Shown: piece by piece, positions 7,508 to 64,000 of the stretch
Layout of the letters: every line of letters begins with the position of its first letter
Numbering within the stretch: position 1 is the first letter of the stretch
From: Limnomonas spitsbergensis
Taxonomy: Eukaryota; Chlorophyta; Chlorophyceae; Chlamydomonadales
DNA: 64,000 nt
Direction of reading: 5' to 3'
Assembly: GCA_037349105.1 (NCBI GenBank)
Contig: JAYJMM010000052.1
Coordinates: forward strand, 62,001 to 126,000
The notes under the pieces: generated by a model
What the model saw: the letters and a program-made list of their open reading frames with translations, nothing else
Told to the model about the DNA's origin: nothing
Databases searched by the model: none
Translations under genes and position numbers: made by a program

Positions 7508-8157
7508 GAGTTAAAAAGCTGGGAGAAACAGGCACACTGGTGTTGGAGGGAGCAGACGGTTTGACAGTGACAGAGAACGCTGTCAACTGCTCCCCGTGCC
7601 ACTTGCCCAACCTCCGGGGTGTGGTAGATTTCAGTGGGGCAAGGCCCAATAACAGCTTGTCTTGTGAGGTGTGCCAACTGCCAGATCGCGGAGATGTGAT
7701 GCTGTTGTGCGATGTCTGCAACACAGGTTGGCACATGGATTGCTTGGTACCAGCACTTGATAAGGTGCCTGAGGGCGAATGGTTGTGCCCGCGGTGCCAG
7801 CCGGACGACAAGGAAACTGGGCCCGCTGAGATAGCAGGGCCCGTTGCAAAGCCAGAGCGCAGCGCAGCCATCCAGGGGCGACCAAGCCCAGCTGCCAGAG
7901 CAGCAGCCAGGGCGGCCCCATATGCCGATATCATGGATAAGCCGGAGGTGGAGGTTATGGCCACCAACCCGGCCACACAGCAAATGGAGCGGGGCATCGC
8001 AAGGCCAATGGCGAACGGTTTGTACGACATCTCGTACACAACTGGCCGGGGAGAGGCCAATGTCACCCCGAGGGCAGTTGCCAGACGGGCCAAGGTGGCC
8101 AAGGAAGCAGCGAGGGAGGAGGAGGAATCGGCACTTGAAGTGTGCACCGATACCTGA
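7504..8157 (+). pseudogene. Integrase C-terminal tail with PHD finger
   Basis: A 217-codon frame. It begins with the end of the integrase C-terminal domain (T-G-T-L-V-L-E-G-A-D-G-L-T-V), continuing the preceding frame across a small frameshift at about 7485-7504. Residues 54-98 form a textbook C4HC3 PHD finger: C-E-V-C, C-D-V-C, W-H-M-D-C and C-P-R-C. PHD fingers read histone tails. By analogy with integrase chromodomains, this one could steer insertion to particular chromatin (inference). The tail beyond residue 110 is A/R-rich and disordered. All eight metal ligands of the finger are intact although the integrase is broken. Confidence 0.85.
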
Positions 8158-24205: not shown

Positions 24206-24534
24206 AGGCAAATCAAATCTACGGTATACCATAAATAACCATTCACTCATGTCATGCCTTGTAGTGGGCCCAGTTCACCAATTCGCATTTCCGGGAGGCT
24301 TTCTGCAAACCCTTGGGAAAGAGCGCTGCTAGCAAAGCTGAGGTGGATGCCTCTCGGGCATGGGCTGATGGAATGATGGTTAACGATCTGTAAAGGTGTG
24401 TCACTTTGATTAAACATGCTTTACTGAATAGAGCTTCTGCCTGCAAATTACAGCTTCAATTCACATCATCCAATGGCATTTTGATTTTTTCTGTGATTAT
24501 TTCATAATCTCTTGCCCCCCTTTGTTTGATAGAG

Positions 24535-24966
24535 GGCTCTCCCCAACGGTGACCCCTTTGACCAACATGCCTTTCCGGCGGGCATCGCCCGGGCCCTTGA
24601 GCCGACAAACGCATCCAGCATAAACGCTCAGACCCGGCACGTTGTCAGCAATGTGACCGTTTCTATGGAACAACTAGCGTTCTCCAGTTTCAAAGTAAGA
24701 TTATTATTTATTAAGTAATTCAAGAAACACTTCCACATCATATGGTAACATTTATCAAAACAATTATGTTTTCAGATGGTCATGAGACAATCCTAATCTT
24801 TATAATCTTTTTTATTAAGGTTAAGAATAGGTCACAGAACAAGGTTGGGAACGAGGGAGTCAGCCATGCGAAGGGGATTGTGGAGGAGATCGCGATTGTG
24901 CAAGCCGTCGGTGAAAAATACGGATGGGCCACCATGATAATTCGTGTGTATGGAAGGAACTGCTAG
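24535..24966 (+). pseudogene. Two terminal exons of a repeated gene family, copy 1, with one-base frameshift
   Basis: Exon 24535-24695 (acceptor GATAGAG, donor GTAAGA) and exon 24820-24966 (acceptor TTATTAAG, ending in TAG). They encode L-P-N-G-D-P-F-D…A-G-I-A-R-A-L-E-P…A-Q-T-R…E-Q-L-A-F-S-S-F-K, then V-K-N-R-S-Q-N-K…G-V-S-H-A-K…A-I-V-Q-A-V-G…Y-G-W…R-N-C. The same two exons, in the same order and both followed by a stop, occur on the minus strand at 51840-51342. The last exon is 147 nt in both, with about 33 of 48 residues identical. The first exon is 161 nt here versus 160 nt there: an extra T in the run at 24660-24663 shifts the frame. Family function unknown to me. A possible first exon begins with ATG near 23690 and reaches a GTAAGG donor near 23750. 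Confidence 0.7.
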
Positions 24967-25099
24967 CTCCTTTGTGTAGTTGACCGCTGTCACTAGAGTG
25001 TTGCATGTTATGAACACTTGTGAACATTGGGGTATTGTGACTTGGGAGCTCTTGTTCTGAATGATTGTCGTTTTTGAGGTGAACTATGTTGTTGCCGAC

Positions 25100-30430: not shown

Positions 30431-31580
30431 GCCCCCACGTTTTTCCTGTATGGCTCCACGGTTTTCTGGCAGCGGCATAGAGCTTTAGGTAGCTTTTGCT
30501 GATCCTGTCTAACCCCACGGTTTTCTGGCAGCGGCATAGAGCTTTACGTAGCTTTTGCTCATCCTGTCTGGCCCCACGGTTTTCTGGCAGCAGCGTAGAG
30601 CTTTAAGTAGCCTTTGCTGATCATGTGTGGCCCCACGGTTTTCTGGCAGCGGCATAGAGCTTTAAATAGCTTTTGCTGATCTTGTCTGGCCCCACGGTTT
30701 TCTGGCAGCGGCCAAGAGCTTTAAGTAGCTTTTGCTGATCATGTATGGCCCCACGGTTTTCGCAGCAACATAGAGCTTTAAGTAGTTTTTGCTGATCCTG
30801 TCTGGCTCCACGATTTTCTGGCAGCAACATAGAGCTTTAAATAGCTTTTGCTGATCCTGTCTGGCCCCACGGTTTTTAGGCAGCAACATAGAGCTATAAG
30901 TAGCTTTTGCTGATCCTGTCTGGCCCCACGGTTTTCTGGGAGCGGCATAGAGCTTTAAGTAGCTTTTGCTGATCTTGTCTGGCCCCACGGTTTTCTGGCA
31001 GCAACATAGAGCTTTAAGTAGCTTTTGCTGATCCTGTCCGGCCCCACGCTTTTCTGGCAGCAGCATAGAGCTTTAATTAGCTTTTGCTGATTTTGTCTGG
31101 CCCCACGTCTTTTTGGCAGCGGCATAGAGCTTTAAGTAGCTTTTGCTGATCCCATCTGGCCCCACGGTTTTCTGGCAACGGCAGAGAGCTTTAAGTAGCT
31201 TTTGCTGATCTTGTCTGGCCCCACGGTTTTCTGGCAGCAACATAGAGCTTTAAGTAGCTTTTGCTGATCCTGTCCGGCCCCACGCTTTTCTGGCAGCAGC
31301 ATAGAGCTTTAATTAGCTTTTGCTGATTTTGTCTGGCCCCACGTCTTTTTGGCAGCGGCATAGAGCTTTAAGTAGCTTTTGCAGATCCCGTCTGGCCCCA
31401 CGGTTTTCTGGCAACGGCAGAGAGCTTTAAGTAGCTTTTGCTGATCCTGTCTGGCCCCACGATTTTCTTGCAACGGCATAGAGCATTCAGAAGCTTTTGC
31501 TGATCCTGTCTGGCCCCGAGGATTATTGGCAGCGGCATAGAGCTTACCGTAGTTTTTGATGCGACACCTTGTTGTTGATC
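30431..31580. repeat. 59-bp tandem array, about 19 units, with a four-unit higher-order repeat
   Basis: Unit core GGCCCCACGGTTTTCTGGCA then GCGGCATAGAGCTTTAAGTA and GCTTTTGCTGATCCTGTCT. Unit starts step by 59 (30513, 30572, 30631, 30690 and so on). A block around 31026-31190 recurs at 31262-31430, an offset of 236 = 4 x 59. Units abut with no spacers. Minus-strand frames here are by-products. Confidence 0.95.
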
Positions 31581-31596: not shown

Positions 31597-31690
31597 ACTA
31601 AACCCTAAACTAGCCCCTAAACCCTATAAACCCTGAACTAGCCCCTTATCCCTATAAACGCTGAATCAGTCCCTAAAGCCTATCAACCCT
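31597..31690. repeat. Interstitial telomere-like patch
   Basis: ACTAAACCCTAAACTAGCCC then CTAAACCCTATAAACCC and variants. CCCTAAA is the complement of the TTTAGGG repeat of plants and many green algae. Only a few imperfect units are present. Confidence 0.6.
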
Positions 31691-31699
31691 ATGGCGGTG

Positions 31700-32160: not shown

Positions 32161-32755
32161 CACTTTTTTCGACGAGTCTGTCAGCCACAGTCATGGCTTT
32201 ACACCTCATGGCCATGCTAAAGAATGCTCGGCCGCGTCGGCGTCCAATAGGTTGGACCAGCTGGAAACTAAATAGAGGAAACAAGCATGATATAAAAGGG
32301 AAAAGAGCCCACAACTCCCCTTGTTGGGCAGTCGACTGCAAACCGGGCAGCGACTGCATCCCCACCTGCATCGTGCCGCCCCTTGCTCGACCACCGCCCG
32401 TGCAAGATCCCCGCGCCCTGCCTGCAAAACCCCCGTTGCAGCGCCCCCGAACCCCGGACTTGCAAGCCCACAACGCCCCCCAGAAGGCTTTGAGTACTGC
32501 CAGACTGCAACACGCCCTGCTGCCATGCCGTATACACCATGGTTGCTGCTTATTCCTTTTGGTTTAAACGCATTTTTTGATACCGGTACCCCCATTTGAT
32601 TTTGTCAGTGCACGCTAATGCGGCTCCTCCCACATCATGTTGCGAGGGGGGTGAGCAGTATAGCGCATGTGGTGGCAATAATCGCTAAGGGCTTTTTTCG
32701 GAGCCACCCGAGTGACGCTTATTTTAGGCTCTATGTCATTGTGGAATGTTGAGGA

Positions 32756-32835
32756 TGGTGCATACCCGTTGGGCCCTGCTTATAGCTCGGCCGCGTGGGG
32801 CTAGTAGAGGATGAGCGACCTCAATTCCAGCTACC
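32756..32835 (-). repeat. End block of the dispersed CACGCGGCCGAGC family, inverted
   Basis: On the minus strand this reads AGCTGGAATTGAG…CTAGCCCCACGCGGCCGAGC then ATAAGCAGGGCCCAACGGGT and ATGCACC, closely matching 59850-59927. The left part of the element is not visible, so it is a truncated copy. Confidence 0.6.
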
Positions 32836-33543
32836 ACTGGTAGCATGACGCACGAAAGCATGACGCACAAAAGCAAGTGCATCCCACCCCTTATCATGCT
32901 GGTACATCTGGTGGAAGTAAGTGACCGGGGGACCTGCCCACCCCCGCTCTTGTAACTGCTTCTTGACACTAGGGCACTGGAGGCACACATGCAGCGCATC
33001 CTTCACCCGCTCGCCATCTCTCCGTGCCCAACACCGCTGGCAGCTGCGTGCCTCTCGCCGCTGACCGCTGCGACGTCCTCTGGTGTCAGCCGTTGCGTGC
33101 TGATCACGCCGAGCCGCAAATTTGTGCGCATACAATCACACTCCCTCGTGCTGGTGCGGCTCCTGGCTTGCGCAAGCATGGCCCCCGCCGTGGACTGTAG
33201 TGTGTATGCGTCCAACGCAAAGGGTGTGCGAAGGCTCGTTCGTGTATTGGATTTGTTTGCCATGTACCATCTGGTCTCGCTGTACCTAGCCCTCTTGACA
33301 CCTGCAAGTGTGCTACTGTGCACTTGCGTGCATGGCATATGGGGAACAGGAAGAATTGGTTGGAGGCACATCGCGATGTGCAAGGGCAGCCCGCATGTAA
33401 CCCAGCTTCATGACCAGCTCGAAGCGCACGAAGAGGACCGCCGGCTTTGGGTGGCGGCGGTGCCCTTGGCATGCGACCAGAGTTGAGTGCGGAATGTCTT
33501 CTAACCTACCCATTGGCTCATCAACAGTCCTTTGGGCTGCCAT
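32821..33543 (-). pseudogene. Reverse transcriptase C-terminal tail, decayed, second instance
   Basis: Minus-strand blocks 33543-33313, 33383-33003 and 33135-32821 overlap in different frames, as expected for a frameshifted gene. The last contains R-S-C-Q-R-C-W…E-R-V-K-D-A-L-H-V-C-L-Q-C-P-S-V, the C-x2-C … H … C tail typical of non-LTR-type RT proteins. It is a different sequence from the remnant at 11408-12134, so a second element family. No polymerase core remains. Confidence 0.5.
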
Positions 33544-42659: not shown

Positions 42660-43960
42660 ATATAGTGGGGAAGCAGGTGTACAGGCAGGTGAACAACAGG
42701 CTGGTGAACAGGCAGGTGGACAGGCAGGTGAACATGCAGGTGAACAGGCAGGTGTACAGGCAGGTGAACAAGCAGGTGGACAGGCAGGTGGACAGGCAGG
42801 TGGACAGGCAGATGGACAGGCATACAGGTTTGCAGGCAGGTGGACAGGCAGGTGGACAGGCAGGTGGACAGGCAGGTGGACAGGCAGGTGAACAAGCAGG
42901 TAGACAGGCCGGTGGACAGGCAGGTGGACAGGCAGGTGGACAGGCAGGTGGACAGGTTTGCAGGCAGGCAGACAGGTTTGCAGGCAGGTGGGCAGACAGG
43001 TGGACAGGCAGGTAGACAGACAGGTAGACAGACACGCAGGTAGACAGGCGGGTGGACAGGCAGATAGGTGGATAGGCAGGTGGAACGGTAGGTGGACAGG
43101 CAGGTAGACAGGCAGGTGAACAGGCAGGCAGGTGGAAAGGCAGGTGGACAGGCAGGTGGACAGGCATGTGAACAGGCAGGTAGACAGGCAGGTGAACAGG
43201 CAGGTGGACAGGCGGGTGGACAGGCAGGAGGACAGGCAGGTGAACAGGCAGGTGGACAGGCAGGTGGAAAGGCAGGTGGAAAGGCAGGTGGAAAGGCAGG
43301 TGGACAGGCAGGTGGACATGCAGGTGGACAGGCAGATGGACAGGAAGACAGGTTTGCAGGAAGGTGGACAAGCAGGTGGACAGGCAGGTGGACAGGCAGG
43401 TGGACAGGCATGTGAACAGGCAGGTAGACAGGCAGGAGGACAGGCAGGTGGACAGGCAGGTGGACATGCAGGTGGACAGGAAGGTGGACAGGTTTGCAGG
43501 CAGGCAGACAGGTTTGCATGTAGGTGGACAGACAGGTGGACAGGCAGGTAGACAGACAGGTAGACAGACACGCAGGTAGACAGGCAGGTGGACAGGCAGA
43601 TAGGTGGATAGGCAGGTGGAACGGTAGGTGGACAGGCAGGTAGACAGGCAGGTGAACAGGCAGGCATGTGGAAAGGCAGGTGGACAGGCAGGTGGACAGG
43701 CAGGTGGACAGGCAGGTGGACAGACAGGTGGACAGACAGGTGACCAGGCAGGTAGACAGGCAGGTGAACAGGCAGGCAGGTGGACAGGCAGGTGGACAAG
43801 CAGGTGGACAGGCAGGAGGACAGGCAGGTGGACAGGCATGTAGACAGGCAGGTGAACAGGCAGGTGGAAAGCCAGGTGGACATGCTGGTGGACAGGCAGG
43901 TGGAAAGGCAGGTAGACAGGCAGGTGAACATGCAAGTGGACAGGCAGGACATTGGGGCAG
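42660..43960. repeat. 12-bp CAGGCAGGTGGA minisatellite with 536-bp higher-order duplication
   Basis: About 108 units of CAGGCAGGTGGA and variants. A distinctive stretch with GACAGGTTTGCAGGCAGG at 42951 and TGGAACGGTAGG at 43081 recurs at 43487 and 43617, both offset by 536. The 12-base unit keeps all frames open on both strands, giving spurious frames of up to 468 codons on the minus strand. Confidence 0.95.
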
Positions 43961-48989: not shown

Positions 48990-50802
48990 GTACTCAACCT
49001 TGGCCAACCTACGGACGATGGCCCAAGCAGCAGGCCTTGCCGCACCAGGCCTCCCGGAGAAGACAGGGATGCAGCTAATTATTGGTCAGTGTCCATCGTG
49101 CACCGATACCGCTCATAAATCACCCGCAACTGGACTGGTCAGAGCTACCCGGACCCCCAGCTGGGAAGCAGAAGATATTCTTCTTCAAGACAAGAACATG
49201 GCAATGCTCCTCAGAAAGTGGATATCAGAGGACCATGACCAACCACCGGCCGGGACCTGAGCTAGAACCATGGATGCCGACCTACCCAACACGGCCAGAC
49301 AGGTTTCCATACTAACCAGAGCAGCTGGAATTCTACCCTCGGGGACATCATCCGGGACTGCATCAGCTTTGATATGGACCCCCAAGTGGACATCTCCCCC
49401 TCAGGAGAATGCATCATACAAATCAGAGATATCGAGACGTGGGCTTCAAAGAGCAGCAATGACAATCACAAAACCGATGTGGCATATATATGTACAGGGA
49501 ACAGCAGATGCATGGGGAGTCACCAAATGTAGATTGCGCACCCTCCATCTCCTCTACTACACCGTTGCACTCACACGCAGACATGACTTCTCCACCCTCC
49601 TCATGAGAACAAGCAGTGGGGGACCTCATTGTAAGATACAAGGAGGTGAACAAGGCTCCAAGTAAGCAATGGCCTGACCAACTCAGCATCAACCCGCAGA
49701 TGAAAACAACGACATGCCAATATTTTGGCATCACCAAAGAACCATTATCCCGCCTGTTTAATGTAGATGGACACATTGTTACCTACTGGAGCAATCACCC
49801 CCGGGATCAAGCCTCTGAGGCACACTGTCACCTACTGGAGCAATCACCCCCGGGATCAAGCCTCTGAGGCACACTGTCACCTACTGGAGCAATCAACCCC
49901 GGGATCAAGCCTCTGAGGCACACTGTCACCTACTGGAGCAATCACCCCCGGGATCAAGCCTCTGAGGCACACTGTCACCTACTGGAGCAATTACCCCCGG
50001 GATCAAGCCTCTGAGGCACACTGTCACCTACTGGAGCAATCACCCCCGGGATCAAGCCTCTGAGGCACACACAGACGTCTGCAAACACAGTGGACAGGGT
50101 CCTCACATGCGTACTCTAATCGGGATGACCCCTCCCTTGACAAAGCAGTCAGGTGGGCCGTAGGGTCTGCGCACATGACCAGGGTATCAACAGCAACAGT
50201 CTTTTACACACCCAGAAAGATAAATCGCCTGGCAGGCCTGCCTACCAGGCATGGTTGGACAAAACCCCACAAGACTGCACTAGGCTCGGAAGCACTCAAG
50301 GCTCCCCGTTCCCAATCAGGAAAGAGGATACGTGGACTCAGGGAGCTTACCCATAGTCACTACCTAAATGCCGCACAGGTATCGTAGTTATTCAAAATGA
50401 AGACGGACGCCCGGCAGGCACGACTAACATCCCCCATCGTCGCAGAGCATGCCCCCACGCCCCTCTCTCACCGACACATCCCAGCCAGTGAACGCCTCGT
50501 CAACCAACTCCGCAGAGCCCTCACCCTGGCAACTCCACACCCAGAGGTGAAAGGCCCCTGAAGCTGGTGGGCAGGTGGGCAGAAACCGGTAAGAAGACAC
50601 CCATGCGCATGGGAAGGCATGCAATACACAAAATGAGCATGGCAGCAGCATCTAAGAGTCACAAGCATTCCTTTGTGCCCTTCAAGACTCAGACATCCCC
50701 GGCGTGCCAGCCTTCAACGAGGCCATGCACGAAGAGGACTGCCTGGACTGGTTTCACGAGAACAATGCGTTGATGCATGAATGGAGGAAAATAGCCTACA
50801 CT
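48990..50802 (+). pseudogene. Retroelement ORF ending at the start of its RNase H domain, left part, disrupted
   Basis: Open blocks in shifting frames (49000-49260, 49270-49665, 49616-49800, 50175-50387 and 50656-50802) read as one decayed + strand polyprotein. Examples are Q-L-S-I-N-P-Q-M-K-T-T-T-C-Q-Y-F-G and K-A-V-R-W-A-V-G-S-A-H-M-T. The final block ends …E-W-R-K-I-A-Y-T at base 50802. RNase H domains begin with h-Y-T-D-G-S, and the D-G-S-C half is found at 63757, so the gene is split here. No polymerase core (Y-x-D-D) is evident in what remains. A 49-bp minisatellite at 49782-50070 also breaks the frame. Confidence 0.65.
49782..50070. repeat. 49-bp minisatellite expanded inside the retroelement ORF, six units
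   Basis: CCTACTGGAGCAATCACCCC then CGGGATCAAGCCTCTGAGGC and ACACTGTCA, with unit starts at 49782, 49831, 49880, 49929, 49978 and 50027. Five extra units add 245 bases, which shifts the reading frame of the host ORF. Confidence 0.95.
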
Positions 50803-50827
50803 CGTCGGTAACATGGGGCCCCTTGAT

Positions 50828-51165
50828 CCACGCTTGAAACGAAAACAATCCTGCTTGAAACATACCCCTGAATCAAACTATGAATCAAGCGGGATTTTTT
50901 GAAATCAAGCCACAGCAGCTAGCGCTTGATTTGAGCTTGATTCAAGCGGATATCAAGCGGGAATCAAGCAAGAATCAAGCGCATGGAATCAAGCCGAAAT
51001 CAAACGGGAATCAAGGGTTCTTATCAAACAGGAATCAAGCGGAATCAAGCGTTCTTATCAAGCCGGAATCAAACCATGAATCAAGCGGGTTAACGTTTGA
51101 ATCAAGCCGAAATTTCCACCGTTTGATTTGAGCCTGAATCAAGAGCGAATCAAAGGTCATTACAA
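50828..51165. repeat. Subterminal TCAAGC-rich repeats, left end of large element
   Basis: AATCAAGCGG, AATCAAGCCG and their inverse GCTTGATT recur irregularly every 10-25 bases, 16 exact TCAAGC/GCTTGA hexamers. The matching right-end cluster is at 63680-63745. Confidence 0.85.
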
Positions 51166-51341
51166 AAGTCAATAAACCCTAAGCCACCGGGAGTAAATTC
51201 ATAAGCCACCAGCGCTTCACCCTAGACCGCCAACAAAAAATTCTAGCTCATCAGCAAATATCCTGGGCCACACTCAATTGAAGTTAGCACTAGTGTGGAT
51301 GCCAACAATTCAGTGGTTGTCACCGCTGCCTGACAATGGAG

Positions 51342-52490
51342 CTAGCAGTTCTTGCAATACACCTGAATTATCATCTTCTCCCATCCATATGCATCTCCCT
51401 CGGCCTGAACTATTGCCATCTCCTCGATGATATCCTTAGCATGGCTCACTCCCTGGCTGCCTGGCTTGTTCTGTAGCCTGTTCTTGACCTAAAAGGAGAA
51501 GAGGAGAACAGATAAGGAACAAAAGATAAGGAATGTTTTGCGATGAGACAGGGTTTTTGAGGATCTTTCAGATTCAGAATAATACGCTGGCTGTTATGCA
51601 AGTAATATGCTGGTTGTTTAAGCTGTTATGCAAGTAACATGGCCATTCATGAATAGCTTCAACAAAATAAATAATCATACCTTGAAGCTGAAGAAGGCAA
51701 GCTGCTCCAGCGACGCAGTCACTTTGGCGAGAGCTTGTCGGGTCTGAGCGCTTATGCTCGATGTGGATGACGGCTCCAGTGCCCGGGCGATGCCTGCCAG
51801 AAAGCAATAATGGTCGAAGGGGCCACCGTTGGGGAGAGACCTATATGAGTGAGGGGTTGGTGAAATCAGCAAATAACTAAGCAATAACAATCCAAAATTG
51901 CCAATGTATGATATGAGGAGAACCTGTGATTCGTTGGCAGTAGGTGGAGTGAACCAATATCATTCAAACGTACACACCTGTACATGTTGTCCACCAGCAA
52001 CCCATGCCCTGAAGTTGTCCACTGACTTCAATCTGCGTACCAGGCTTGTTTGCCACTGCCCCGTTGCCTCGCTCGTCGTCTTCCCCGCCGGAGGCCTAAC
52101 TAAGGACAGAGCCCTCTTTCGCTTCTTTCCCACAGCCTCCGCCTCTTCCACCGCATTCTCTGTATAGCAATATACAGAAATTAGCGAACCAGAAAGTATG
52201 GGTAAGGCCGCCAGAAATGCATTATCTCACGTCTGATCTCACCGTCGCTGTCAGATCCTTCAGAATCTGAAGGCTCGCTGGTGTCGGCAGAGCGGCTGCA
52301 GCTGACCCTCCAGCTGCAGGTTTACCAGCTGAAAGGAAACCAGCAATTGCATCTGCTTGCGCGTCAGCCCTCCGAGCCTTCTTTTGTGCACGTGTCGATT
52401 CCTTTATGATGCGTGCAGAAGGCGCGGCCTTGGAGGTCCTAATCCTCAGGCGCGCACCCCGGCCTTCGGATCTCCTTCAGTCAGATTTCA
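51342..52490 (-). CDS. Multi-exon gene of the large TIR element, copy 2 of the repeated family
   Basis: Minus-strand exons: up to about 52490 to 52243 (ends S-D-S-E-G-S-D-S-D, donor GTGAGA), 52159-51978 (N-A-V-E-E-A-E-A-V-G-K-K-R-K-R…N-F-R-A-W-V-A-G-G, donor GTGTGT), 51840-51681 (L-P-N-G-G-P-F-D…A-G-I-A-R-A-L-E-P…A-Q-T-R…L-E-Q-L-A-F-F-S-F-K, donor GTATGA) and 51488-51342 (V-K-N-R-L-Q-N-K…G-V-S-H-A-K…A-I-V-Q-A-E-G…Y-G-W…K-N-C, stop TAG). The first junction completes a Glu codon in phase. A short linking exon between the second and third is required by phase. K-K-R-K-R after an acidic run suggests a nuclear, DNA-associated protein (inference). The last two exons are shared with 24535-24966. I recognise no catalytic motif and cannot assign it as transposase. 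Confidence 0.65.
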
Positions 52491-52997
52491 AATTATTGAG
52501 CGACTCTAGGGCGGGTAAAGGAAAGGGGAGAATAGGAGAGAAGACAGAGATAATAGATAGGGAGCTGATGCCCTAGCGCGTCTGGACGAATAGCTGTATG
52601 GTGGATCCAGGCACATTAACGAGCACACGTCCACACCGTCCGAACTTAGTATTACGTACCAACAGCCCCTCGAGCAACGCTTCGGTTATTTGTATTCTTA
52701 GCAGCCTCTATCTATCCTATACCCCTCTCTATTTCAGAGGGGGGATAGGAGAGATGCCCCACACAAACCTAACACCGCCTTGTGATGTTCACACATTATC
52801 ACAACGTGGATAGTCCACGTTGTGATATGGCGCGGGACGATTCCGACCTTGTGTGAAGAATCACTAGCATGTGTGACGGGCATGTGCATTTCTTTCTTTC
52901 ATATTTCGTTAGAGGCCAGCTGGTCAAACCTTTTTTTAAGACACACTCAGGCTAGCATGGGCGGCACACACTCAGGCTGGCACACACTCGGGCTGGC

Positions 52998-53378
52998 ATG
53001 GGCGGCTTCCTGATAGTTCAGCTATTTCCTAGCTCAGAGGACCTGTACAAGTCGGGATTGGCTGGCACCTTCGAATCCTCGAGTGATCTGGGGTCCCATC
53101 TCTTACATCACACCAAGGGGATGGATCAGGACCTGGTTAACGTCTTCGATGATGTCTCGGCCTCAAACACAAGCAGGAGTACGGAGACGAAGGCCAGCGG
53201 CCAGCGGAAGCACGTCCCTAACTGCTACATTTCCTCTGTGCTGGAGAAGGGGGGTGGCAATCCGGAGGAGACAGAGAAGGTGGATAAAACATGGACAGGT
53301 TCGGTAATGCACACATACCTTAACCGCTGCATCAATGGGCTCATGCACCTCGTTGTTGATCATGTGCTTACCTACTAG
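52998..53378 (+). CDS. Uncharacterised small ORF in the large TIR element
   Basis: A frame of 126 codons divergent from the minus-strand gene and just before the satellite. Its composition is protein-like (D-L-V-N-V-F-D-D-V-S-A-S-N-T, C-Y-I-S-S-V-L-E-K-G-G-G-N-P-E-E-T-E-K-V, L-N-R-C-I-N-G-L-M-H-L-V-V-D-H-V-L-T-Y). The ATG at 52998 may not be real, and the sequence could be an internal or last exon. No family recognised. Confidence 0.35.
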   Translation: MGGFLIVQLFPSSEDLYKSGLAGTFESSSDLGSHLLHHTKGMDQDLVNVFDDVSASNTSRSTETKASGQRKHVPNCYISSVLEKGGGNPEETEKVDKTWTGSVMHTYLNRCINGLMHLVVDHVLTY

Positions 53379-53404
53379 ATTTTAAGAAAACTAGAGGGGA
53401 ACCC

Positions 53405-56400
53405 CAATCCCTACTAGCTGGCCAGCTTGCTTGCGCACCACCCTAGTACTGTTGGCCCGCTTGCTTGCGCACCACACAGGTATTGCTGGCCAGCTTGCTT
53501 GCGCACCACCCTGGTATTGCTGGCCAGCTTGCTTGCGCACCACCCTAGTACTGCTGGCCTCCTTGCTTGCGCACCAACCTAGTACTGCTGGCCTGCTTGC
53601 TTGCTTGCGCACCACCCTAGTACTGCTGGCCTGCTTGCTTGCGCACCACCCTAGTACTGCTGGCCTGCTTGCTTGCGCACCACCCTAGTACTCTTGGCCC
53701 GCTTGCTTGCGCACCACCCTGGTATTGCTTGCCAGCTTGCTTGCGCACCACCCTGGTATTGCTGGCCAGCTTGCTTGCGCACCACCCTGGTATTCCTGGC
53801 CAGCTTGCTTGCGTGCGCACCACCCTAGTAATGCTGGCCAGCTTGCTTGCGCACCACCCTAGTATAGCTGTCCAACTTGCTTGCGGACCAACCTAGTACT
53901 GCTGGCCGGCTTGCTTGTCCACAATCTCAGTACTGCTGGCCAGCTTGCTTGCGCACCACACTGGTATTGCTGGCCAGCTTGCTTGCGAACCACCCTTGTA
54001 CTGCTGGCCTGCTTGCTTGCGCACCACCCTAGTACTGCTGGCATGCTTGCTTGCGTACCACCCTAGTACTGCTGGCCTGCTTGCTTGCGCACCACCCTAG
54101 TACTGCTGGCCTCCTTGCTTGCGCACCACCCTAGTACTGCTGGCCAGCTTGCTTGCGCACCACCCTAGTACTGTTGGCCCGCTGGCTTGCGCACCACCCT
54201 GGTATTGCTGGCCAGCTTGCTTGCGCACCACCCTGGTATTGCTGGCCAGCTTGCTTGCGCACCACCCTGGTATTGCTGGCCAGCTTGCTTGCGCACCACC
54301 CTTGTACTGCTGGCCTGCTTGCTTGCGCACCACCCTAGTACTGCTGGCATGCTTGCTTGCGCACCACCCTAGTACTGCTTGCCTGCTTGCTTGCGCACCA
54401 CCCTAGTACTGCTGGCCTCCTTGCTTGCTGCGCACCACCCTAGTACTGCTGGCCAGCTTGCTTGCGCACCACCCTAGTATTGTTGGCCCGCTTGCTTGCG
54501 CACCACCCTGGTGTTGCTGGCCAGCTTGCTTGCGCACCACCCTAGTACTGTTGGCCCGCTGGCTTGCGCACCACCCTGGTATTGCTGGCCAGCTTGCTTG
54601 CGCACCACCCTGGTATTGCTGGCCAGCTTGCTTGCGCACCACCCTGGTATTGCTGGCCAGCTTGCTTGCGCACCACCCTTGTACTGCTGGCCTGCTTGCT
54701 TGCGCACCACCCTAGTACTGCTGGCATGCTTGCTTGCGCACCACCCTAGTACTGCTTGCCTGCTTGCTTGCGCACCACCCTAGTACTGCTGGCCTCCTTG
54801 CTTGCTGCGCACCACCCTAGTACTGCTGGCCAGCTTGCTTGCGCACCACCCTAGTATTGTTGGCCCGCTTGCTTGCGCACCACCCTGGTGTTGCTGGCCA
54901 GCTTGCTTGCGCACCACCCTGGTATTGCTGGCCAGCTTGCTTGCGTGCGCACCACCCTAGTACTGCTGGCCAGCTTGCTTGCGCACCACCCTAGTATTAC
55001 TGGCCAACTTGCTTGCGCACCACCCTAGTATTGCTGGCCTGCTTGATTGCGCACCACCCTAGTATTGCTGGCCTGCTTGCTTGCGCACAACCCCAGTACT
55101 GCTGGCCAGCTTGCTTGCGCACCACACTGGTATTGCTGGCCAGCTTGCTTGCGCACCACCCTGGTATTGCTGGCCAGCTTGCTTGCATGCGCACCACCCT
55201 AGTACTGCTGGCCAGCTTGCTTGCGCACCACACTAGTATTACTGGCCAACTTGCTTGCGCACCACCCTAGTATTGCTGGCCTGCTTGATTGCGCACCACC
55301 CTAGAATTGCTTGCCTGCTTGCTTGCGCACAACCCCAGTACTGCTGGCCAGCTTGCTTGCGAACCACACTGGTATTGCTGGCCAGCTTGCTTGCGCACCA
55401 CACTGGTATTGCTGGCCAGCTTGCTTGCTTGCGCACCACCCTAGTACTGCTGGCCACCTTGCTTGCGCACCACCCTAGTACTGCTGGCCAGCTTGCTTGC
55501 GCACAACCCCAGTACTGCTGGCCTGCATGCTTGCGCACCTCCCTAGTATTGCTGGCCTGCTTGCTTGCGCACAACCCCAGTACTGCTGGCCTGCTTGCTT
55601 GCACACCACCCTAGTACTGCTGGCCAGCTTGCTTGCGCACCACGCTAGTACTGTTGGCCAGCTTGCTTGTGCACCACCCGAGTACTGCTGGCCAGCTTGC
55701 TTGCTTGCGCACCACCCTATAACTGCTGGCTAGCTTGCTTGTGCACCACCCTAGTACTGCTGGCCAGCTTGCTTGCGCACCACACTAGTACTGCTGGCCA
55801 ACTTGCTTGCGCACCACCCTAGTACTGTTGGCCCGCTTGCTTGCGCACCACACTGGTATTGCTGGCCAGCTTGCTTGCGTGCGCACCACCCTAGTATTAC
55901 TGGCCAACTTGCTTGCGCACCACCCTAGTATTGCTGGCCTGCTTGATTGCGCACCACCCTAGTATTGCTGGCCTGCTTGCTTGCGCACAACCCCAGTACT
56001 GCTGGCCAGCTTGCTTGCGCACCACACTGGTATTGCTGGCCAGCTTGCTTGCGCACCACCCTGGTATTGCTGGCCAGCTTGCTTGCGTGCGCACCACCCT
56101 AGTACTGCTGGCCAGCTTGCTTGCGCACCACCCTAGTATTACTGGCCAACTTGCTTGCGCACCACCCTAGTATTGCTGGCCTGCTTGATTGCGCACCACC
56201 CTAGAATTGCTTGCCTGCTTGCTTGCGCACAACCCCAGTACTGTTGGCCAGCTTGCTTGCGAACCACACTGGTATTGCTGGCCAGCTTGCTTGCGCACCA
56301 CACTGGTATTGCTGGCCAGCTTGCTTGCTTGCGCACCACCCTAGTACTGTTGGCCAGCTTGCTTGCGCACCACCCTAGTACTGCTGGCCAGCTTGCTTGC

Positions 56401-59372
56401 GCACAACCCCAGTACTGCTGGCCTGCATGCTTGCGCACCTCCCTAGTATTGCTGGCCTGCTTGCTTGCGCACAACCCCAGTACTGCTGGCCTGCTTGCTT
56501 GCGCACCACCCTAGTACTGCTGGCCAGCTTGCTTGCGCACCACGCTAGTACTGCTGGCCAGCTTGCTTGTGCACCACCCGAGTACTGCTGGCCAGCTTGC
56601 TTGCTTGCGCACCACCCTATAACTGCTGGCTAGCTTGCTTGTGCACCACCCTAGTACTGCTGGCCAGCTTGCTTGCGCACCACACTAGTACTGCTGGCCA
56701 ACTTGCTTGCGCACCACCCTAGTACTGTTGGCCCGCTTGCTTGCGCACCACACTGGTATTGCAGGCCAGCTTGCTTGCGTGCGCACCACCCTAGTATTAC
56801 TGGCCAACTTGCTTGCGCACCACCCTAGTATTGCTGGCCTGCTTGATTGCGCACCACCCTAGTATTGCTGGCCTGCTTGCTTGCGCACAACCCCAGTAAT
56901 GCTGGCCAGCTTGCTTGCGCACCACACTGGTATTGCTGGCCAGCTTGCTTGCGCACCACCCTGGTATTGCTGGCCAGCTTGCTTGCGTGCGCACCACCCT
57001 AGTACTGCTGGCCAGCTTGCTTGCGCACCACCCTAGTATTTCTGGCCAACTTGCTTGCGCACCACCCTAGTATTGCTGGCCTGCTTGCTTGCGCACCACC
57101 CTAGTATTGCTGGCCTGCTTGCTTGCGCACAACCCCAGTACTGCTGGCCAGCTTGCTTGCGCACCACCCTGGTATTGCTGGCCAGCTTGCTTGCGTGCGC
57201 ACCACCCTAGTACTGCTGGCCAGCTTGCTTGCGCACCACCCTAGTATTTCTGGCCAACTTGCTTGCGCACCACCCTAGTATTGCTGGCCTGCTTGCTTGC
57301 GCACAACCCCAGTACTGCTGGCCTGCTTGCTTGCGCACCACCTTGGTATTGCTGGCCAGCTTGCTTGCGTGCGCACCACCCTAGTACTGCTGGCCAGCTT
57401 GCTTGCGCACCACCCTAGTACTGCTGGCCAGCTTGCTTGCGCACCACCCTAGTACTGCTGGCATGCTTGCTTGCGCACCTCCCTAGTATTGCTGGCTTGC
57501 TTGCTTGCGCACAACCCCAGTACTGCTGGCCTGCTTGTTTGCGCACCACCCTAGTACTGCTGGCCAGCTTGCTTGCGCACCACCCTAGTACTGCTGGCAA
57601 GCTTGCTTGCGCACCACCCGAGTACTGCTGGCCAGCTTGCTTGCTTGCGCACCACCCTATAACTGCTGGCTAGCTTGCTTGCGCACCACCCTAGTATTGC
57701 TGGCCTGCTTGATTGCGCACCACCCTAGTATTGCTGGCCTGCTTGCTTGCGCACCACCCTAGTACTGCTGGCCAGCTTGCTTGCGCACCACACTGGTATT
57801 GCTGGCCAGCTTGATTGCGCACCACCCTAGAATTGCTTGCTTGCTTGCTTGCGCACAACCCCAGTACTGCTGGCCAGCTTGCTTGCGAACCACACTGGTA
57901 TTGCTGGCCAGCTTGCTTGCGCACCACACTGGTATTGCTGGCCAGCTTGCTTGCTTGCGCACCACCCTAGTACTGCTGGCCAGCTTGCTTGCGCACCACC
58001 CTAGTACTGCTGGCCAGCTTGCTTGCGCACCACCCTAGTACTGCTGGCCTGCATGCTTGCGCACCTCCCTAGTATTGCTGGCCTGCTTGCTTGCGCACAA
58101 CCCCAGTACTGCTGGCCTGCTTGCTTGCGCACCACCCTAGTACTGCTGGCCAGCTTGCTTGCGCACCACGCTAGTACTGCTGGCCAGCTTGCTTGTGCAC
58201 CACCCGAGTACTGCTGGCCAGCTTGCTTGCTTGCGCACCACCCTATAACTGCTGGCTAGCTTGCTTGTGCACCACCCTAGTACTGTTGGCCAGCTTGCTT
58301 GCGCACCACACTAGTACTGCTGGCCAACTTGCTTGCGCACCACCCTAGTACTGTTGGCCCGCTTGCTTGCGCACCACCCTAGTATTGCTGGCCAGCTTGC
58401 TTGCGTGCGCACCACACTCGTATTGCTGGCCAACTTGCTTGCGCACCACCCTAGTATTGCTGGCCTGCTTGATTGCGCACCACCCTAGTATTGCTGGCCT
58501 GCTTGCTTGCGCACAACCCCAGTACTGCTGGCCAGCTTGCTTGCGCACCACACTGGTATTGCTGGCCAGCTTGCTTGCGCACCACCCTGGTATTGCTGGC
58601 CAGCTTGCTTGCGTGCGCACCACCCTAGTACTGCTTGCCTGCTTGCTTGCGCACCACCCTAGTATTTCTGGCCAACTTGCTTGCGCACCACCCTAGTATT
58701 GCTGGCCTGCTTGCTTGCGCACCACCCTAGTATTGCTGGCCTGCTTGCTTGCGCACAACCCCAGTACTGCTGGCCAGCTTGCTTGCGCACCACCCTGGTA
58801 TTGCTGGCCAGCTTGCTTGCGTGCGCACCACCCTAGTACTGCTGGCCAGCTTGCTTGTGCACCACCCTAGTACTGCTGGCATGCTTGCTTGCGCACCTCC
58901 CTAGTATTGCTGGCAAGCTTGCTTGCGCACCACCCTAGTACTGCTGGCCAGCTTGCTTGCGCACCACCCTAGTACTGCTGGCCAGCTTGCTTGCGCACCA
59001 CCCTAGTACTGCTGGCCAGCTTGCTTGCGCACTACCCTAGTACTGCTGGCATGCTTGCTTGCGCACCTCCCTAGTATTGCTGGCTTGCTTGCTTGCGCAC
59101 CACCCTAGTACTGCTGGCCTGCTTGCTTGCGCACCACCCTAGTACTGCTGGCCAGCTTGCTTGCGCACCACCCTAGTACTGCTGGCAAGCTTGCTTGCGC
59201 ACCACCCGAGTACTGCTGGCCAGCTTGCTTGCTTGCGCACCACCCTATAACTGCTGGCTAGCTTGCTTGCGCACCACCCTAGTATTGCTGGCCAGCTTGC
59301 TTGCGCACCACACTAGTACTGCTGGCCAACTTGCTTGCGCACCACCCTAGTACTGTTGGCCCGCTTGCTTGT
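53405..59372. repeat. 34-bp satellite, about 170 units, with 377-bp and 900-bp higher-order repeats
   Basis: The unit GCTTGCTTGCGCACCACCC plus TAGTACTGCTGGCCA runs without spacers for nearly 6 kb. Variants (GGTATTG, ACAACCCCAG, GCTTGATTGC, extra GCTT or GCGT) are arranged in blocks. Stretches at 55013, 55913 and 56813 are near identical, an offset of 900, and 54119 matches 54496, an offset of 377. Short frames on both strands come from the repeat. Confidence 0.97.
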
Positions 59373-59639
59373 ATGTGGTTGGCAAGGGTGTGGTTAAGCC
59401 GGTTAACACCACTTACCCTGTTAATCACCTGATCCCCTTCGTCCCATTGCAGCCCTGTGCTGACACATGAAGTAGCTTTCAAATTCATATATCATGATGC
59501 AGAGAGGTGCAAGCATGTGTTGTGACTGAAGGCTGTCAGCCATTGCCTGATTGATGGACTTCAGGTGCAAGCTTCTGTTACTTAGTCGTATTTCTAATTT
59601 ACTAAGCGGTGCTCAACTTGATTCGGTTGCACACACGTT

Positions 59640-59927
59640 ATTTGTGTGGGCACTTGTTGCTGAGGGCGCCCACGCGGCGGTGCCTTTTTTAGCAGGGCCC
59701 AAAGGTGTAACGTCAGTGACTTGTCCCTGCGTTGCATTCTGTCCCGCATCTAGTCAATAATGATTTGTGTTATGCCGGGTTCCATGTTCCTGCCCCCTCA
59801 CATAGGAGGATGGCATGGCTGCACCATGGCCCAGGCTGTGCAGGGTAGCTGGAATTGAGCCTAGTCATTCCTACCAGCCCCACGCGGCCGAGCGTAAAGC
59901 ATGGCCCAACGGGTATGCACCGTTATA
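59640..59927 (+). mobile_element. Dispersed CACGCGGC / GGGCCC element nested in the large element
   Basis: Left block GGGCGCCCACGCGGCGGTGC…AGCAGGGCCCAAAGGTGTAA, right block CCCCACGCGGCCGAGCGTAA then AGCATGGCCCAACGGGTATG and CACC. This is the most complete member of the family with the 28026-28516 copy. 288 bp, non-coding. Confidence 0.55.
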
Positions 59928-59934
59928 AACTGTG

Positions 59935-60770
59935 TGTTATGAAGTCCATGAATGAATACCAGTAGTGGTGTACTTGCAATCATGGTAGGTGCTTCAGCCC
60001 AACAACGATATATAACACATCAGTAAGGACTGAAAGCCAATGAGTCCCGCATCTAGTTCTGAATCTTACTTTGTGTTATGAGGTCCGTGAATAAATACTT
60101 GTAGTGGTGTAGTGATCGTCATGGTAGGTGCTTCAGCCCAACAAGCATTCATAGCACAGCAGAGACGGCGCTTAGACTGAAAGCCAATGAGTCCCGCATC
60201 TAGTTCTGAATCTTACTTTGTGTTATAAGGTCGGAGAATAAATACTTGTAGTGGTGTAGTGGCCGTCATGGTATGTGCTTCAGCCCAACAAGCATGCATA
60301 GCACAACAGAGACGGCGCTTAGACTGAAAGCCAATGAGTCTTGCATCTAGTTCTGAATCTTACTTTGTGTAATAAGGTCCGTGAATGGATACTTGTAGTG
60401 GTGTAGTGACCGTCATGGTAGGTGCTTCAGCCCAACAAGCATTCATAGCACAACAGAGACGGCGCTTAGACTGAAAGCCAATGAGTCTTGCATCTAGTTC
60501 TGAATCTTACTTTGTGTAATAAGGTCCGTGAATGGATACTTGTAGTGGTGTAGTGACCGTCATGGTAGGTGCTTCAGCCCAACAAGCATTCATAGCACAA
60601 CAGAGACGGCGCTTAGACTGAAAGCCAATGAGTCTTGCATCTCGTTCTGAATCTCACTTTGTGTTATAAGGTCCGTGAATGGATACTTGTAGTGGTGTAG
60701 TGACCGTCATGGTAGGTGCTTCAGCCCAACAAGCGCAGAGACGGCGCTTAGACTAAAAGCCAATGAGCCG
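59935..60770. repeat. 147-bp tandem array, six units
   Basis: CATGGTAGGTGCTTCAGCCC occurs at 59981, 60120, 60267 (GTATG variant), 60414, 60561 and 60708. Steps are 139, 147, 147, 147 and 147. Units also share GAAAGCCAATGAGTC…GCATCTAGTTCTGAATCT. Confidence 0.95.
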
Positions 60771-61049
60771 CGCATCGAGTACACATACTGTTACAAACAG
60801 TTTAATATAATGTTACACTCAGTTCAAGCATAATAATAATTTAAATGTCCACTCTAAATCAGCATGAATCACTCGGAATCAGAATCAGACTGGGGAGTAA
60901 CGGCATATACCTGTGTGCAAGGCTCCCCTCGGACCCATTTCCACACATTACGTCGGGGAAATTGTGCGTGGGTATACCCACGGCCACCCACATCTTGAAG
61001 AACTCAGGACCCTTCACAAAATCTTTCACTATAGAAACCTCAAGCACAA

Positions 61050-62610
61050 CTCCCACCGGCAGGGCACAGGAAAGACGGGCGGTTGCGGTGCATGCTAGTG
61101 AAGCGCAAAACCCACCAGCAAGGCACAGGAAATACGGGCGGTTAGGGTGCATGCCGGTGAAACGGAACACAGACCAGCAGGGCACAGGAACTACGGGCGG
61201 TTGCGGTGCATGCGAGTGAAGCGCAACACCCACCAGCAGGGCATAGGAAATACGAGCGGTTAGGGTGCATGCTGGTGAAGCGCAACTCCCTCCAACAGGG
61301 CACAGGAACTACGGGCGGTTGCGGTGCATGCTGGTGAAGCGCAACACCCACCAGCAGGGCATAGGAAATACGGGCGGTTGGGGTGCATGCTGGTGAAGCG
61401 CAACACTCACCAGTAGGGCACAGGAAATAAGGGCGTTTACTGTGCATGCTGGTGAAGCGCAAAACCCACCAGCAGGGCACAGGAAATACAGGCGGTTGGG
61501 GTGCATGCCGGTGAAGCGCAACACCCACCAACAGGGCACAGGAAATACGGGCGGTTGCGGTGCATACCGGTGTAGCGCAACACCCACCACTAGGGCACAG
61601 GAAATACGGGCGGTTGCGGTGCATGCGAGTGAAGCGCAACACCCACCAACAGGGCACAGGAAATACGGGCGGTTGGGGTGCATGATGGTGAAGTGCAACA
61701 CCCACCAGCATGGCATAGGAAATATAGGCGGTTGTGGTGCATACCGGTGTAGCGCAACACCCACCAGCAGGGCACAGGAAATACGGGCGGTTGCGGTGCA
61801 TGCTAGTGAAGCGCAACACCCACCACTAGGGCACAGGAAATACGGGCGGTTGCGGTGCATGCGAGTGAAGCGCAACACCCACCAACAGGGCATAGGAAAT
61901 GCGGGCGGTTGGGGGCATGCTGGTGAAGCGCAACTCCCACCAGCAGGGCACAGGAAATACGGGCGGTTGCGGTGCATGCTGGTAGGGCGCAACACCCACC
62001 AGCAGGGCATAGGAAATACGGGCGGTTGGGTGCATGATGGTGAAGCGCAACACCCACCAGCACGGCACAGAAAATACGGGCGGTTGCGGCGTATGCCAGT
62101 GAAGCGCAACACCCACCAGCAGGGCACAAGAAATACGGGCGGTTGCGGTGCATACTACTGAAGCGCAACACCCACCAGTAGGGCACAGGAAATACGGGTG
62201 GTTGGGGTGCATGCTGGTGAAGTGCAACACCCACCAGCATGGCATAGGAAATATAGGCCGTTGCGGTGCATGCCGGTGTAGCGCAACACCCACCAGCAGG
62301 GCACAGGGAATACGGGCGGTTGGGGTGCATGCTGGTGAAGCGCAACACCCACCAGCTGGGCACGGGAAATACGGGCGGTTGGGGTGCATGCTGGTGAAGC
62401 GCAACACTCACCAGTAGGGCACAGGAAATAAGGGCGTTTACTGTGCATGCTGGTGAAGCGCAAAACCCACCAGCAGGGCACAGCAAACACGGGCGGTTGT
62501 GGTGCATGCCGATGAAGCGGTGCACCCACCGGTTAAGCGATGCACCCATTGGTAGGGCACAGGAAAAATGGGCGGTTGCGGTGCACACCGTTGAAGGTTT
62601 AGGGTTGTTG
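61050..62610. repeat. 59-bp tandem array, about 26 units, with a 1-kb internal duplication
   Basis: Core GCGCAACACCCACCAGCAGG plus GCACAGGAAATACGGGCGGT and TGCGGTGCATGCTGGTGAA, stepping by 59 (61221, 61280, 61339, 61398, 61457, 61516). CAACACTCACCAGTAGGGCA occurs at 61401 and 62402, an offset of 1001, about 17 units. Because 59 is not a multiple of three and no frame has stops, minus-strand frames of 200-320 codons arise. They are not genes. Unrelated in sequence to the 59-bp array at 30.4 kb. Confidence 0.95.
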
Positions 62611-62639
62611 TTTTGCACGGCATGATGCGTTACCCTCTT

Positions 62640-63660
62640 AAGCCAGTTTCTCTGGAAAGAGCGTAGCACCCACTTGCATGGCACTGTCCATACAGGCAAG
62701 CGCTGTGCATGCGGGTGGGGCACTACACTCATCGGAGGGGCACGGTTATACGGGCGGGCGCTGTGCACAGTAAATAATACGGGTGGGCACTGCAGGTGGG
62801 TGGGGCACTACACCAATCCGCAGGCTGGCGAGGCATTTAGACGGCGTTGCCCATCCGTCGGGGCGATGTGCATGCGCATGAGGTGATCGGGTGCTACGGA
62901 TTAAAGTACTGGTAGGGCACTGTGCAAACACGCCGGTGATAGGAAGACCAGGATGTGCTAGTATACGTGCGGGGCGCTGCTCTTGCTCAAGGGAAATGCG
63001 CATACAAGAAGGGTGGTGCGCATGCGGGCGGGGCGCTGCGCTTGGGCGATGTGCATATGGTATGGGCAAGTCACAACACATGCGAGACATGCAAGCTCAA
63101 AAACGAGTCCCATAGTGCCTGCTGACTCCACCTGACACTGAGAGCTCTACCGCTGAATCCTTCTGTTGCTGTCTCCTTTACTCTTGTCGCGGCTGCTGAC
63201 GTTCCCTTAGGGCGGTCAAAATTATGAGCTGCCGGATAACCCTTGCTTCTGCACACATGCGGGTAGGCTTCCGCTGCTGCAGCTTAGTGACCTTAGTGAC
63301 CTTAGCGACCTAGGCTGGTTAGAAGCCTTGGGGAGCTAGGGGAGCTTACGGTATCATAAAACTTCCTCAAGCGCCCCTCAACCTTTCTTTGTTAATGAGA
63401 GCTAGCCGTCCCAGTAAGTTGAAGCCTAACCACAGTAGTACAACTTTCGATCGCATTCAAAGCCTGCGAAGCGTAAGAAAGTCACGGCTGAAAGTTGTTA
63501 TAAGTCGGTTGCCTACGGTACACGCTAGGCGACCTGCGATAGGCGCCTGTGTCAATCGCCGTCGTGATTCACTACATCTACCTCGGTAAAATTGGTAACT
63601 TACAGTATTTCCAGGCGATGGATGTCAATTCGACTTGTCAGTGGCCACGCCTGATTGTCG
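62640..63660. other. Degenerate continuation of G-rich repeats, then unique sequence; no gene recognised
   Basis: 62660-63060 repeats GGGTGGGGCACTAC, GGGCGGGCGCTGTGCA and GATGTGCATGCG words at low identity. 63280-63310 has three GTGACCTTA units. The rest carries only a short basic frame (63389-63589) without motifs. Confidence 0.45.
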
Positions 63661-63679
63661 TTTGAAACGAGGTGCGTTC

Positions 63680-63754
63680 AAGCCTCTGTCTTCCAGTGGC
63701 TTGAAATAGGGGGCAAATCAAGCGGCCAAATCAAGCGCTCTCATGTTACCGACG
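63680..63754. repeat. Right subterminal TCAAGC repeats and terminal inverted repeat of the large element
   Basis: GTTCAAGCC, GGCTTGAAAT, AATCAAGCGG and AATCAAGCGC lead into CATGTTACCGACG, which ends at 63754 next to the duplicated CT. Confidence 0.85.
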
Positions 63755-63756
63755 CT

Positions 63757-64000
63757 GACGGCAGTTGCATGGAAATCAACCTCCTGGGAGGCAGGAAAGG
63801 CCAACTGTCCGGCACAGGTCTACATATGCTGAGTGCTCCACCAGGGCAGCAAGCCAGCAAGACTTCACCATTCACCCGGCAGGTGAAGGCCCACATCAAC
63901 AGAACCGAGCTGGCGGGGATCTACGGAGCCCAGACGAAGAGGCAGTCAAACATCGCAGTGGAAATTGCTACCTCTATGTACCAAAGACGAAGAGCGCTTT
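63757..64000 (+). pseudogene. RNase H domain, right part of the split retroelement ORF
   Basis: Open to the window edge. It begins D-G-S-C-M-E-I, the second half of the active-site motif whose first half (I-A-Y-T) ends at 50802. H-I-N-R-T-E-L-A-G-I supplies the conserved glutamate. Further on, A-V-E-I-A-T-S-M-Y-Q-R-R-R-A-L stands where RNase H has its third acidic residue within an I-A-T-D-S-like stretch. The D-S is missing here, so the domain was probably already inactive or decayed after insertion. RNase H removes RNA from the RNA/DNA hybrid during reverse transcription. Confidence 0.75.

Follow-up and report, generated by a model that had tools for sequence, protein, structure and literature searches.

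A satellite-carrying, most likely non-autonomous transposon family with CGTCGG ends in the green alga Limnomonas spitsbergensis

Introduction

Satellite-carrying elements are already known among CACTA transposons. Jozin, a CACTA/EnSpm element of Chenopodium quinoa, is large, has terminal inverted repeats (TIRs) and clusters of direct and inverted subterminal repeats, holds captured gene fragments and contains satellite DNA on the kilobase scale, with 5,550 bp of 171-bp units in 16.5 kb (PMC8978399). Here we describe a 12,952-bp insertion at positions 50803-63754 of a 64,000-nucleotide stretch of the Limnomonas spitsbergensis genome (the window; contig JAYJMM010000052.1, positions 62,001 to 126,000) that is alike in all these respects. 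With a probability of roughly 80%, it is a large, most likely non-autonomous copy of a cut-and-paste transposon, from subfamily A in a family whose termini read CGTCGGTAACATG.

Unlike Jozin, which has a Transposase_21 domain (PMC8978399), the CGTCGG copies contain none that we recognise; they also differ from it in their CGTCGG ends, 2-bp duplications, several mosaic subfamilies and, in nearly all interiors, three or more different arrays. The CGTCGG family is a new variant of this theme. The Tetris foldback element of Drosophila virilis is likewise apparently non-autonomous and modular, with tandem repeats forming satellite-like arrays, but its repeats lie within the TIRs, whereas here the TIRs are short and the large arrays internal (PMC4079207).

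Among the described groups, CMCT transposons make target duplications of 2-5 bp and mostly end in CA..TG, with TGT..ACA or CATCA..TGATG in Plavaka; TA dinucleotides are given for PHISTA of the Harbinger group, and duplications of 7-8 bp for Kyakuja-Dileera-Zisupton elements (PMC12730594). Clusters of subterminal repeats have been reported in CACTA (PMC8978399). Our literature search, which did not extend to subscription papers or Repbase, yielded no recognised description of a CGTCGG-ended family.

Results

Insertion into a retroelement

The insertion interrupts a retroelement copy and is flanked by a CT dinucleotide on either side (50801-50802 and 63755-63756). A genome search with the right flank (63757-64000, plus strand), which reads D-G-S-C after the site, gives 16 matching places including the window itself. 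At ten loci the left flank (plus strand, examined over 50403-50802) and the right flank are contiguous and have exactly one CT in common; two of these (L051 and L056) represent one site, leaving nine distinct empty sites, established for the window copy only. The left-flank match is absent at the remaining five places. Removal of the element with one CT thus yields the order found at nine uninterrupted sites; the earlier note on this DNA, whose coordinates and duplication are correct, had proposed that it restores the codon order. Neither outcome that the note named as refuting is seen, since other copies of the retroelement exist without the block and the termini flank common interiors. The single insertion event that it envisaged is borne out by these empty sites and by the 20 of 22 copies read in which identical termini are flanked by 2-bp duplications.

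Across the site, the uninterrupted copies L042, L044 and L048 translate as IA-YTDGS or TA-YTDGS, while L043 has YTDGT. The insertion had been placed within an RNase H catalytic motif; the motif reading recurs in the uninterrupted copies, whereas Pfam searches gave no match in either the right flank or copy L042, and the label is a provisional one taken from the YTDGS motif. Farther out, retroelement copies contain stop codons in the same frame as this motif, so the interrupted copy is probably not an active gene. Immediately left of the insertion site, a 49-bp tandem array (49772-50070; six units at 97%) seems to be part of the retroelement copy because the translated related copy L045 has a similar repeated peptide. 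Pfam searches of 20 window stretches outside the element gave no match at E up to 0.01, and the window yielded no hit to Rfam and no tRNA.

Ends and family size

The left TIR (50803-50827, plus strand) and right TIR (63730-63754, minus strand) agree at 21 of 25 positions rather than the 22 counted earlier. Their 13 terminal bases are perfect, with CGTCGGTAACATG at 50803-50815 and its reverse complement at 63742-63754. The left subterminal region (50803-51152, plus strand) contains 16 TCAAGC/GCTTGA words in 350 bp and includes a 36-bp tandem arrangement at 50951-51087; the right one (63605-63754, plus strand) contains four in 150 bp. Such words had been noted at both ends, and their numbers are far above those in 500 single-base shuffles (mean 0.16 on the left and 0.06 on the right, maximum 2 each). 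When the two ends and the 34-bp unit described below were folded as single strands, the z values were -2.9, -1.4 and -2.1, which we do not use as evidence.

A search of the 260-Mb genome for the 13-base terminus, suggested in the earlier note, finds 139 exact matches (67+72), compared with 7 (3+4) for a reversed control word. With up to two mismatches, the 24-base end occurs 183 times (81+102) against once (1+0) for its control, and the left-end pattern, with up to three mismatches, 77+96 times against none. When 135 ends among the matches listed are paired, a left-type end faces a right-type end within 15 kb in at least 38 cases, the window copy included (2,987-13,635 bp, median 8,466 bp). 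Besides these, a single facing pair has two ends of like type, and in a single pair of neighbours the ends point outward. At C94:961419-974363, two right-type ends face each other 12.9 kb apart, possibly as an inverted-duplicate or hybrid element. Elsewhere (L019, C32:2340391-2340454), at least four head-to-tail 17-bp units are built from the left terminus of the transposon.

We read 22 two-ended copies, namely 20 copies, the copy L057 and the window copy. An identical 2-bp duplication flanks 20 of the 22 and a 3-bp duplication none, compared with 1/22 and 0/22 in shifted controls (binomial 1.7e-22). The duplicated dinucleotides are TA (6), CA (4), TG (3), TC (2) and TT, AA, AC, GA and CT (once each). 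As in a cut-and-paste TIR transposon, inverted repeats at both ends are common to dispersed copies. The excess of the 13-mer, the 38 facing pairs and the 2-bp duplications, for which a check over multiple insertions had been proposed, show that the family is real and probably recently active.

Subfamilies and mosaic interiors

The termini flank common interiors, which we assign to types by their ends, interiors and arrays. Type A comprises the window copy and ten others with 34-, 147- and 59-bp arrays. The seven type B copies have 47-, 53- and 173-bp arrays, except for L028, in which the 173-bp array stands alone; the three type C copies carry a 53-bp array, a 324-bp array matching the 159-bp family and short 59-bp stretches. 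Type D (L057, one copy read) is B-like on the left and A-like on the right, with 47-, 53-, 159- and 59-bp arrays, and type E (L058, one end read) has 59-, 53- and 159-bp arrays.

The left part of L057 shows about 90-97% identity with the seven B copies, and 85-87% is found between its right part and A; left, satellite and right modules have thus been exchanged between subfamilies. In L058, an A/D-like right part is joined to a D-like left stretch. Judged by their ends only, a D-type right end occurs in five additional pairs, four of them within 15 kb and one (C76) at 25 kb, and in another five the left end is of a different kind again, CGTCGGTAACATTAGGCCGCCTGA. The eleven A copies diverge by 0.2-2.5% in the right-hand 620 bp, the window copy being the most divergent (1.8-2.5%).

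In the window copy, the subfamily-A left unique region (51153-53411) is followed by a 34-bp satellite array (53412-59371, about 172 units), a subfamily-A spacer (59372-59928), a 147-bp array (59929-60734, 5.5 units), a 59-bp array (61042-62530, 25.3 units) and the right unique region (62531-63604), which has related forms in types A, C, D and E; all are given on the plus strand.

Two stretches elsewhere in the window resemble the family. A minus-strand segment at 24276-25094 is a fragment of the left interior of subfamily B, sharing 86-88% identity with B copies and having no family end beside it among the ends listed; it represents an older remnant of this transposon family. At 32748-32836, 88 bp are 81-85% identical to the spacer preceding the 147-bp array of A elements.

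Satellite arrays and their growth

Most of the window copy had been described as satellite DNA, and 8,392 of its 12,952 bp (65%) are indeed masked as tandem repeat, 137 bp of which are subterminal repeat. In 20 other copies, the fraction is 26-61%, subterminal repeat included. The 34-bp array has 172.6 units in the window copy and 27-75 in its ten sister A copies. When it is divided into 136-bp segments, 73 of 86 match best inside the same array, at a mean identity of 0.981 compared with 0.952 to the best sister; the best-match spacings, collected by eye, include exactly 900 bp (n=24), 377 bp (n=10) and 1,626 bp (n=10). In nine of the ten sisters, at most one segment finds its best match within its own array, the tenth being L029, with the second-longest array (16 of 36 segments). 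The 34-bp array was inherited shorter and then grew by internal duplication in the lineage of the window copy, since its segments, unlike those of nine of the ten sisters, mostly match best inside their own array. The window copy is large because this array expanded to about 172 units. The earlier note had called the element large, which holds for this copy at 12,952 bp but is not typical of the family, for which the 38 pairs give a median of 8.5 kb; the difference reflects satellite growth.

The 59-bp array is also longer in the window copy (25.3 units) than in the ten sisters (428-546 bp, about 7-9 units). Here, 17 of 24 window segments are matched equally or better by one of five sisters, so internal growth of this array is not supported.

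In L024, a perfect 45-bp direct repeat lies on both sides of the 34-bp array. By exact word, six of the eleven A copies have it twice and four once, and the window copy has none. Copy L022 sits about 90 bp inside another 34-bp array, at whose left edge we find no other A sequence. Judged from that edge, the 34-bp array also exists outside elements of the family; the array around L022 may belong to a nested element.

The window contains two further satellites. At 30444-31545, a 59-bp satellite adjoins telomere-like CCCTAAA words (31599-31691), a repeat that would fit a green alga or plant, and at 42673-43948 a 12-bp minisatellite of about 102 units comes with long, mutually overlapping minus-strand open frames.

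An apparent captured gene fragment

Subfamily-A copies have two exon-like open reading frames (ORFs), one on each side of the 34-bp array. The window ORF at 52956-53378, within the left unique region, corresponds in position to the first of these in L024, where the two look like exons of a captured gene; it has no Pfam domain above cut-off. The second encodes 202 amino acids (L024:4748-5353) and is open in seven of eight copies compared with L024; it has 25 genomic matches, some of them pieces of one copy. Most of it is missing from the window copy, where a gap of about 0.6 kb precedes the spacer, whose first ~90 bp correspond to the last part of the ORF in the sisters.

Searches of Pfam, NCBIfam and PDB gave no match for the 202-aa ORF; by eye only, it has the HxD..H look of a 2-oxoglutarate dioxygenase. 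Substitution ratios against L024, where computable, range from 0.29 to 1.51 on few changes, so that element-borne selection on this ORF is not demonstrated; we treat it as captured passenger DNA. The ratio for the first exon-like ORF is 0.30. Frames at 7770-8004 of the L024 element give ratios of 0.08-0.09, but we tentatively do not read them as coding because overlapping frames on both strands are equally low.

Search for a transposase

No transposase domain was found in a selection of ORFs taken from the window and from copies of types A, B and C, or by eye in type D; Pfam searches of nine ORFs of other copies and ten of the window element gave matches below cut-offs only. The family is most likely non-autonomous because no transposase is recognised. 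A search with PF02992 (CACTA transposase) gave no match and is uninformative, as the control genomes gave none either.

The genome has a single match to the Plavaka domain PF18759, at C112:4286401-4286661 (33.7 bits against a cut-off of 26.3), and relatives of this piece lie at 18 further places at E up to 0.1, some of them weak. One relative (C54:246295-246488; E 1.4e-4 and 0.006) is situated 5.3 kb inward of C54:251787-251810, an exact match to the 24-base end. Beside this end, we find no B-left interior among the 40 of 95 candidates scored. The Plavaka-like fragment inside a matching end is a lead to a candidate transposase, not proof of one.

We also considered end pairs 25-29 kb apart, on C54, C76 and C89, as autonomous elements. 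Within the pair C54:222594-251810, positions 229057-231103 are a B-left interior, as expected of a separate B element; this pair is probably not one element, and on its evidence we set the idea aside.

Discussion

We propose that a transposase supplied in trans would bind the TCAAGC subterminal clusters, pair both ends, cut at CGTCGG and insert the element through a 2-bp stagger; it would most likely be of the CACTA/Plavaka (CMCT) kind. The satellites and the apparent captured gene fragment between the ends would be passenger DNA. Each transposition would plant satellite seeds at new places, where unequal exchange or replication slippage could then lengthen or shorten the arrays. The fuller account, in which a Plavaka-like (CMCT) transposase with a new CGTCGG end type mobilises multi-satellite cassettes, with modules swapped and new arrays seeded, is put forward tentatively, as possible but short of an even chance.

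The 2-bp duplication of the CGTCGGTAACATG family falls in the 2-5 bp range of CMCT (PMC12730594), and a family of Plavaka domain genes exists in the same genome as the CGTCGG elements, although we read no Plavaka gene inside such an element. The 2-bp stagger, the subterminal clusters and the capture of satellites and apparent gene fragments, traits known from CACTA and CMCT elements (PMC8978399; PMC12730594), make the family CMCT-like in behaviour. The subterminal repeat clusters of CACTA/EnSpm are present here too, but the CACTA (CAC..GTG) termini are replaced by CGTCGG..CCGACG, and 3-bp duplications occur in none of the 22 copies. As the termini differ, the family cannot be filed as CACTA or Plavaka. 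Its 2-bp duplications also set it apart from Kyakuja-Dileera-Zisupton, with 7-8 bp (PMC12730594).

Several observations weigh against our account. The ends CGTCGG..CCGACG differ from the CA..TG, TGT..ACA and CATCA..TGATG given for CMCT (PMC12730594). In the copies read, we recognise no transposase between two CGTCGGTAACATG ends, and introns could hide coding exons. Two of the 22 copies (L037 and L038) lack a duplication. The coincidence on C54 would arise by chance with a probability of about 0.05-0.07, by rough arithmetic from 135-183 ends, 18 places, ~5.5 kb and 260 Mb; just one of the 18 Plavaka-relative places lies near an end, and C54 has several family copies anyway. Growth of the 34-bp array, moreover, may precede or follow the insertion in the window.

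An alternative is that a PIF/Harbinger-ISL2EU or other 2-bp-duplicating transposase mobilises the family. A duplication of 2 bp is not by itself diagnostic of CMCT, and TA is duplicated more often than any other dinucleotide (6 of 20). However, the duplications use nine dinucleotides with no fixed target, compared with the TA dinucleotides given for PHISTA of the Harbinger group (PMC12730594), and CACTA elements are known to have subterminal repeat clusters (PMC8978399). We consider a transposase of this kind unlikely, and continue to favour one of the CMCT kind.

Helitrons make no target duplication and have no TIRs, whereas both are present here.

The satellites could themselves be functional parts of the transposon, for example in end pairing or copy control, rather than passengers. 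Of seven arrays sought in 23 interiors, every interior has one or more, 22 of them three or more different ones, and each subfamily has its own set. No array among the seven occurs in every type, however, and L028, at 2,987 bp, retains a perfect CA/CA duplication with the 173-bp array only, so most arrays are dispensable for movement. We regard a functional role as improbable and retain the reading as passengers.

A coding element near C20:74318 (L004) was considered as the autonomous partner, since 37 bp that match the right end of A at 92% identity stand beside long plausible coding ORFs. In a comparison that scored 40 of 157 candidates, the coding element begins 97-99 bp inside the end at eight other places, and the stretch between end and coding element is mostly a separate ~60-bp repeat, unrelated and present at no fewer than 30 more places; we rejected the candidate as very improbable. 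The element itself (L004/L064, C20:74416-77510) is an unrelated low-copy element whose ORFs look transposase-like by eye; Pfam found no transposase in it, and close copies and distant relatives occur elsewhere in the genome.

The idea that the block belonged to the retroelement from the start, or arose in assembly from collapsed satellites, as its 65% tandem repeat might suggest, is refuted by the nine uninterrupted sites and at least 37 end pairs elsewhere, and its probability is negligible.

How satellites spread between chromosomes and what causes arrays to grow is a long-standing question. In this family, many related insertions share a seed array in the same setting, which makes array growth comparable copy by copy. 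If the fuller account is true, a DNA transposon would be a distribution system for the satellites of this genome, with each insertion starting a new array able to grow where it lies. Should the transposase prove to be of the CMCT kind, the range of ends known with 2-bp-duplicating transposons would be widened.

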